Assembly (NCBI GenBank): GCA_029262235.1
Contig: JAJCZU010000006.1
Coordinates: 124,001 to 188,000 of the forward strand
Direction of reading: 5' to 3'
Source: Candidatus Eiseniibacteriota bacterium
GTDB taxonomy: Bacteria; Orphanbacterota; Orphanbacteria; Orphanbacterales; Orphanbacteraceae
Length of the DNA stretch: 64,000 nt
Part shown: in pieces, positions 62,533 to 63,757 of the stretch
Layout of the letters: the number at the start of each line of letters is the position of its first letter
Numbering within the stretch: position 1 is the stretch's first letter
Notes under the pieces: model-generated
What the model saw: the letters and a program-made list of their open reading frames with translations, nothing else
Told to the model about the DNA's origin: nothing
The model's database searches: none
Program-made: the position numbers and the translations under genes

Positions 62533-63234
62533 ATCTCTTGGTATGACCTGCATACGGCTTCGGATGCCTACGCCGGGCGTTTCACCGGCGCTGTCGGCGC
62601 GTGGATGCTCGACCGCCAGTTCGAGCTCGTGCTTGCGGCGCTTCGTGAGATCGGCGCCGCGACCGTTCTGGAAGTCGGCGGCGGACACGCCCAGCTCGCT
62701 CCCCGGCTTGCGGCCGAAGGATTCCGCGTGACGGTTGCCGCCAGCGGGGAAGAAGCCCTGGGGCGTCTCGAGGGCGCACCGGTTACGACCGTAGTGGCGC
62801 CCCTCGGCGATCTCCCGTTCGAAACCGGGGCGTTCGACGCGGTCATCTGCGTGCGTTTGCTCTGTCATACGGAGGAGTGGCGTGATCTGCTGGGCGAGCT
62901 TGCGCGGGTCGCACGATGCGGGCTCATCGTCGACTACCCTATTCGCTCGGGATGGCAGCGGGCGGCGCCGCTCCTCTTTTCCTGGAAGCGGCACATCGAG
63001 AAGTCCACGCATTCGTGGACGGCATTCACGCACGCGGAAATCGAGGAAGCGTGCGGGCATGCGGGGTTCGTGATGAAAAGCCGGGTGGGGCAGTTCGCCC
63101 TTCCCATGGTGCTTCACCGCGTGCTGAAAAATGTGAAGTGGTCTGTTCGTATGGAGAGCGCATGGCGACGCTGGAGTCATGCGCGCGGACAGGCAGGCCC
63201 CGTTATCGCTCTCGCGGTTCCGCGGAATCCGTGA
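62533..63234 (+). CDS. Class I SAM-dependent methyltransferase, probable ATC start
   Basis: The SAM motif is ATVLEVGGGHAQLAPRLAAEG; later motifs are GRLEGAPVTTVVAPLGDLPFETGAFDAVICVRLLCH and RCGLIVDYPIRSG. The segment SWYDLHTASDAYAGRFTGAVG, upstream of the first in-frame ATG (62605), looks like the normal N-terminus of this methyltransferase group. The frame has no ATG, GTG or TTG near it. A perfect GGAGGAGGG (62517-62525) lies 7 bases before ATC 62533, so I propose ATC as the start, giving 233 aa. The other reading is ATG 62605 with a shortened protein. The 3' end overlaps the convergent selenoprotein gene by 32 bases. Confidence 0.72.
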   Translation: MSWYDLHTASDAYAGRFTGAVGAWMLDRQFELVLAALREIGAATVLEVGGGHAQLAPRLAAEGFRVTVAASGEEALGRLEGAPVTTVVAPLGDLPFETGAFDAVICVRLLCHTEEWRDLLGELARVARCGLIVDYPIRSGWQRAAPLLFSWKRHIEKSTHSWTAFTHAEIEEACGHAGFVMKSRVGQFALPMVLHRVLKNVKWSVRMESAWRRWSHARGQAGPVIALAVPRNP

Positions 63235-63757
63235 AGCGCGGCTCGAGCTCTACGCCGAGTCCGTCGGCAATCCGATTCACAAACGCAAAATATGCCGTGA
63301 TCGCGCAGATGTCGTGAATGCCGCGATCGTCGAACCCGTGCTCGCGGAGCGCTTCGACATCGGCCGCGCTCATGGCGCCGGGCGTCCGCGTCAGCTTTGC
63401 CGCATAGTCGAGCATCGCCCGGTCACGGGGCGCGAGAGGGGCCGTTTCGTATTGTGAGAGCGCGGCAATCAGTCCGCCGGGATCGGCGTGCCCTTCCCGT
63501 TCGAGATGCGCACGGAGTCCCGCCCCGTGATGGACGAGTCAGTACTCACATTCGTTGATGGCGGACACGACAACGGCGATCATTTCGCGCTGAGCGCCCG
63601 TCAGCGGGCCGGGCCTTCGCATCAGCGTCACGTAAAGTTCGTAATGGTCGCGCATGGAGCGGGGATGAACACGGTGAATGGCGAGGATGTTGTCCTCGTC
63701 GGCCACGCGGTAGCGGTCGGGGACCTGATCGGGCGATTCGTACTTGATGTGCGCCAA
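63203..63757 (-). CDS. AhpD-like peroxidase-related selenoprotein (CxxU), TGA read as selenocysteine
   Basis: Read through one in-frame TGA (63541-63539), this is a 184-aa carboxymuconolactone decarboxylase/AhpD-type protein. The upstream part has MAHIKYESP, VHPRSMRDHYELYVTLM, GPLTGAQREMIAVVVSAINECEY. TGA then replaces the second redox Cys (Cys70-Glu-Tyr-Sec73). The reading continues in the same frame as LVHHGAGLRAHLEREG (His77, as in C-x2-C-x3-H), SQYETAPLAPRDRAMLDYAAKLTRTP and FDDRGIHDICAITAYFAFVNRIADGLGVELE. Similarity is continuous across the TGA with no frameshift, and a SECIS-like hairpin begins 9 bases later. The start is TTG 63757, 2 bases after the CYTH gene. Likely a thiol/selenol peroxidase or disulfide reductase. 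Alternative: a nonsense pseudogene. Confidence 0.82.
63511..63529 (-). promoter_or_regulatory. bSECIS-like hairpin for selenocysteine insertion
   Basis: On the minus strand CACGGGG (63529-63523) pairs with CTCCGTG (63517-63511), a 7-bp stem with one G-U pair, around the loop CGGGA. It begins 9 bases after the TGA; the loop GG lies 17 bases after it, inside the distance range known for bacterial SECIS elements. Confidence 0.7.

Follow-up and report, generated by a model that had tools for sequence, protein, structure and literature searches.

The minus strand near the end of the window, the 64,000-nucleotide stretch of DNA analysed here, carries a gene for a 184-aa AhpD-like protein (63203-63757, TIGR01926) in whose frame a single TGA lies at 63541-63539, with 72 codons ahead of it and 111 behind. 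An earlier note, made from the sequence of this DNA, had reported the interruption, the AhpD-like frame and the 111 same-frame codons past the TGA, and all three were confirmed, the last by count. The gene starts with TTG at 63757 and stops with a TAA ending at 63203; we took TTG 63757 as the start because this is also where the homologs begin, with ATG, GTG or TTG as start codon and a common N-terminus, M-A-[HFY]-I-x-Y. The protein matches the NCBIfam profile TIGR01926 (peroxidase-related enzyme) over residues 23-172 with 125.4 bits (curated cut-off 81.8 bits), and therefore the similarity crosses the TGA, with homology unbroken on both sides of it. The motif reads C70-E-Y-U73-L-V-H-H, as in the earlier note, so that the TGA (63539-63541, minus strand) is exactly the second Cys position of a CxxC site; its partner Cys70 is encoded by TGT at 63548-63550 on the same strand. 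When the protein was aligned with Cys homologues, as the note had suggested, a catalytic Cys was found at the TGA position, as it was in 2PFX and 2PRR, the best-matching relatives of solved structure. We conclude that the in-frame TGA almost certainly stands for a selenocysteine at the active site of an antioxidant-type, AhpD-like enzyme.

Upstream on the same strand lies the 3′ end of a CYTH-domain gene (PF01928; 63760-64000, starting outside the window), which ends with a TGA stop 2 nt ahead of the selenoprotein start codon, and the two genes are likely on the same transcript. The CYTH neighbour also stands beside the gene in the two other carrier genomes of the family and was not found at homologous loci outside it; since it is shared only within the same genome family, it says little about function. 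An Rfam scan of the window gave no match, and no tRNA was found in it. The frames returned by a scan of the window for further cases split by one TGA were all long, and many lay opposite or beside long genes of the other strand.

Genomes were scanned with six peptide patterns, one of which had Cys in place of Sec. Among 94 homologous loci (L021-L114), the codon of U73 is TGA in 89, nearly all with a Cys three residues ahead, and four of the other five have Cys there. All 80 loci retained with the Cys-bearing pattern have TGA, a result that this pattern could not favour because it had Cys itself. By MAG name, the Sec carriers belong to Gemmatimonadota, Acidobacteriota, Planctomycetota, Chloroflexota, Neomarinimicrobiota (Fidelibacterota), Calditrichota, Zixiibacteriota, Eisenbacteria, Synergistota and Actinomycetota. 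A sample of 386 genomes around the window contained both Cys and TGA forms among its TIGR01926 matches; those above the cut-off had no internal stop other than TGA, and one match of lower score contained a TAG. The earlier note had held that other stop codons or frameshifts at this position in relatives would speak against a selenoprotein, and in the relatives checked we found TGA instead.

The 7-bp hairpin that the note had placed 9 bases past the TGA is present at 63529-63511 of the minus strand (CACGGGG-CGGGA-CUCCGUG). It begins at the tenth base past the TGA, with nine bases between, and the G in its CGGGA loop is the second loop position (63521). For the isolated single strand, minimum-free-energy folding favoured a different hairpin that directly follows the UGA (z -0.23), and a synonymous-codon null on this one gene gave p = 0.11 for the hairpin at 63529-63511, which on its own does not reach significance. 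That alternative hairpin was rejected, as it is not conserved and is at shuffle level in 47 sequences. Across the family, RNAalifold recovered five core pairs of the 63529-63511 hairpin, and compensatory changes occur in two of these pairs. The free third codon positions within the hairpin were also constrained: counting as a fit any base that makes the stem or the loop G, and taking expectations from local codon usage, the third position fits in 65 of 68 sequences at Gly78 (25.9 expected), 57 of 58 at Ala79 (17.0), 73 of 83 at Leu81 (26.4) and 68 of 78 at Arg82 (12.3). The observed count was reached at none of the four positions in 200,000 simulations (P < 5e-6 each, with the sequences, from a set covering many phyla, treated without correction for kinship). 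Because the hairpin is conserved in the family and its synonymous sites are constrained, the assignment of 63529-63511 as a bacterial SECIS (bSECIS), proposed in the earlier note, is supported at the sequence level.

Ten relatives from Anaerolineae/Chloroflexi (L087, L089, L091, L095, L098, L106, L108, L110, L113 and L114) have the peptide HHARNLRQLT and have lost the hairpin at its usual place. These loci have a SECIS-like hairpin, CUUCGUC-AGUU-GACGAAG with an AGUU loop, 22-42 nt past the TGA, about 12 nt further down (p 0.001 to 0.06 against synonymous shuffles).

The genome of the window (4.47 Mb in 11 contigs, 95.5% complete) was searched for the machinery of selenocysteine insertion, the absence of which the earlier note had named as a possible refutation. 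The set was complete in this genome, which carries the AhpD-like gene: a tRNA-Sec with anticodon TCA (UCA) scored 70.7 bits, above the cut-off, selA 538 bits and selB 370 bits, and two selD genes were above the cut-off. One selD (L018, G000:C3:455857-456780) itself carries a TGA in frame, at the position where SelD usually has its Sec (TCG-TGA-AAKLSP); the second (L019) has no stop and sits in a 1018-codon open frame, perhaps as a fusion. In the sole genome of the same genus that we compared (82% complete, 830 contigs), neither the AhpD-like gene nor selA was found. Compared with the window's genome (G000), four genomes of the same family are without the gene (G001, G003, G004 and G006); selA is kept in two of them and lacking in two, one of which is only 82% complete, and therefore Sec use appears patchy in the family. 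Beyond this lineage, tRNA-Sec was above the Rfam cut-off in the genomes of 25 of the 26 Sec loci searched, mostly at 61-78 bits. The exception was L043; its 44.7 bits, like the 54 bits for L051, fall within or close to the scores that ordinary tRNAs reached as cross-matches in that search.

Mapping Sec on a 118-protein tree takes five changes, compared with a mean of 19.5 when the labels are shuffled. The window protein falls in a clade of 50 rows from about ten phyla, with 100/100 support, in which all rows have Sec; nearest to it are L022 and L023, of the same family, and an Eisenbacteria locus, L064. L023 is identical in motif and downstream DNA to another named Eisenbacteria locus, L044. 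A variant site was seen at L030 (G054:C2:30543-30944), where Ser replaces the first Cys (S-S-H-U, that is, SxxU), and its genome, G054, has several TGA-bearing AhpD-like paralogues. It is an evenly balanced proposition that this large AhpD-like clade over some ten phyla has Sec as its settled, and perhaps its ancestral, state, with no reversion to Cys in the 50-row clade, and that the Anaerolineae branch kept Sec while its bSECIS shifted by about 12 nt downstream.

An AlphaFold model built from 39 sequences (mean pLDDT 95.8, pTM 0.90) predicts an all-helical AhpD fold and superposes on the AhpD-like crystal structures 2PRR, 2PFX, 2OYO, 3C1L and 6K40 with TM scores of 0.77-0.86. Glu58, Cys70, Tyr72, Sec73, His76 and His77 are invariant in the alignment. 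In M. tuberculosis AhpD, the second Cys of the CxxC site (Cys133) is the reactive peroxidatic Cys near His137 and not the resolving one. The earlier note was thus right to place the TGA at the second Cys and wrong to give that residue a resolving role; we take the position of Sec73 to be that of the reactive thiol in AhpD. The spacing in the window protein, E-x11-C-x2-U-x3-H, equals that of Glu118/Cys130/Cys133/His137 in M. tuberculosis AhpD and Glu36/Cys48/Cys51/His55 in P. aeruginosa PA0269 (PMC3141380), and hence Sec73 occupies the place of Cys133. The CxxU is present, and so are the Glu and His that PMC3141380 describes for the proton relay of AhpD (E58, C70, Y72, U73 and H77).

These features are consistent with a mechanism in which SelB, carrying Sec-tRNA(Sec), would bind the hairpin 9 nt past the UGA, and Sec would be inserted at residue 73 of the predicted all-helical protein. 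There Sec73 would stand in for the reactive second Cys of the AhpD site and be paired with Cys70, while Glu58, Tyr72 and His77 would form a putative proton relay. The likely job of the enzyme would be to reduce a hydroperoxide or other oxidised substrate: Sec73 would attack the substrate, a Cys70-Sec73 selenenylsulfide would form, and a cellular thiol reductant would presumably reset it.

Two other readings of the TGA were weighed. A single base change turns either Cys codon, TGC or TGT, into TGA, and the gene was not found in the only same-genus genome, as would suit a Cys codon mutated in a decaying gene or misread in sequencing. However, the same TGA recurs across about ten phyla, at 89 of 94 loci, and is the sole internal stop in family members above the cut-off, the protein stays conserved for more than 100 codons beyond it, the third positions of the hairpin are constrained, and the genome has the Sec machinery, so that a pseudogene or error is, to judge by conservation, ruled out. 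A general reassignment of TGA to Trp or Gly (code 4/25 type) would likewise have the codon read as a residue, but TGA is the ordinary stop of the upstream CYTH gene, the aligned residue in homologs is Cys rather than Trp or Gly, and the genome encodes a tRNA-Sec with anticodon TCA; this explanation is refuted as well. With TGA and hairpin conserved and the machinery in the genome, the selenoprotein reading of the earlier note is borne out, and on these genomic comparisons we are highly confident that the locus encodes a genuine bacterial selenoprotein, one of the peroxidase-related AhpD-like family.

The activity is a separate matter, as a genuine Sec protein might serve in vivo not as a peroxidase but as a thiol/selenol-disulfide adaptor or a reductive dehalogenase-like enzyme of the AhpD/CMD superfamily. 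Members of TIGR01926 have been little characterised (their label is "peroxidase-related"), and the fold is common to the debrominase Bmp8 and to Sestrin-2. Yet no residue of the AhpD proton relay is missing, with Tyr where M. tuberculosis AhpD has His132, a replacement also present in PA0269, for which H2O2 reductase activity was measured, though it was low (PMC3141380). We regard a role other than peroxidase as rather unlikely, and retain hydroperoxide reduction by the selenoenzyme as the preferred reading.

An automatic gene caller would report this enzyme as two fragments, of 72 and 70 aa, and its relatives from many uncultured phyla would be broken up in the same way. Once the gene is annotated correctly, a Candidatus Eisenbacteria-like lineage gains an antioxidant-type selenoenzyme and a dependence on selenium; our literature search found no report of selenocysteine in Eisenbacteria. 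The family is also a good data set for the evolution of SECIS elements under protein-coding constraint.

That CxxU AhpD-like proteins are a known class, as the earlier note had stated, is documented: the family was first reported in a survey of the Sargasso Sea in 2005, with 27 sequences (PMC1088965), was among the commonest selenoproteins in GOS in 2008 (PMC2398784), and is tabulated as a predicted selenoprotein family, "AhpD-like protein, TIGR01926, CxxU" (PMC13188914 Table 1). NF041238 (AhpD_rel_CFYUT) and NF041047 (distant AhpD homolog) are likewise AhpD-type CxxU selenoproteins; the window protein is not a member of the former (56.3 bits, 175 required) and had no match to the profile of the latter. 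The Cys proteins 2PRR, 2PFX, 2OYO, 3C1L and 6K40 share its fold and catalytic motif at 29-41% identity in structural alignments, but have Cys where it has Sec73. M. tuberculosis AhpD and PA0269 have the same Glu/Cys/Cys/His site and spacing, but are distant in sequence and have Cys for Sec at the second position. With the CxxU family (TIGR01926/COG2128) the window protein shares the domain family, the Sec position and a bacterial SECIS downstream; the host lineage is new, its nearest relatives being Candidatus Eisenbacteria MAGs, and we found no other essential difference. Two aspects may be less described, namely how widely the Sec clade extends among uncultured phyla and the displaced SECIS of Anaerolineae; the gene itself is a further member of a described selenoprotein family, from a Candidatus Eisenbacteria-like genome.
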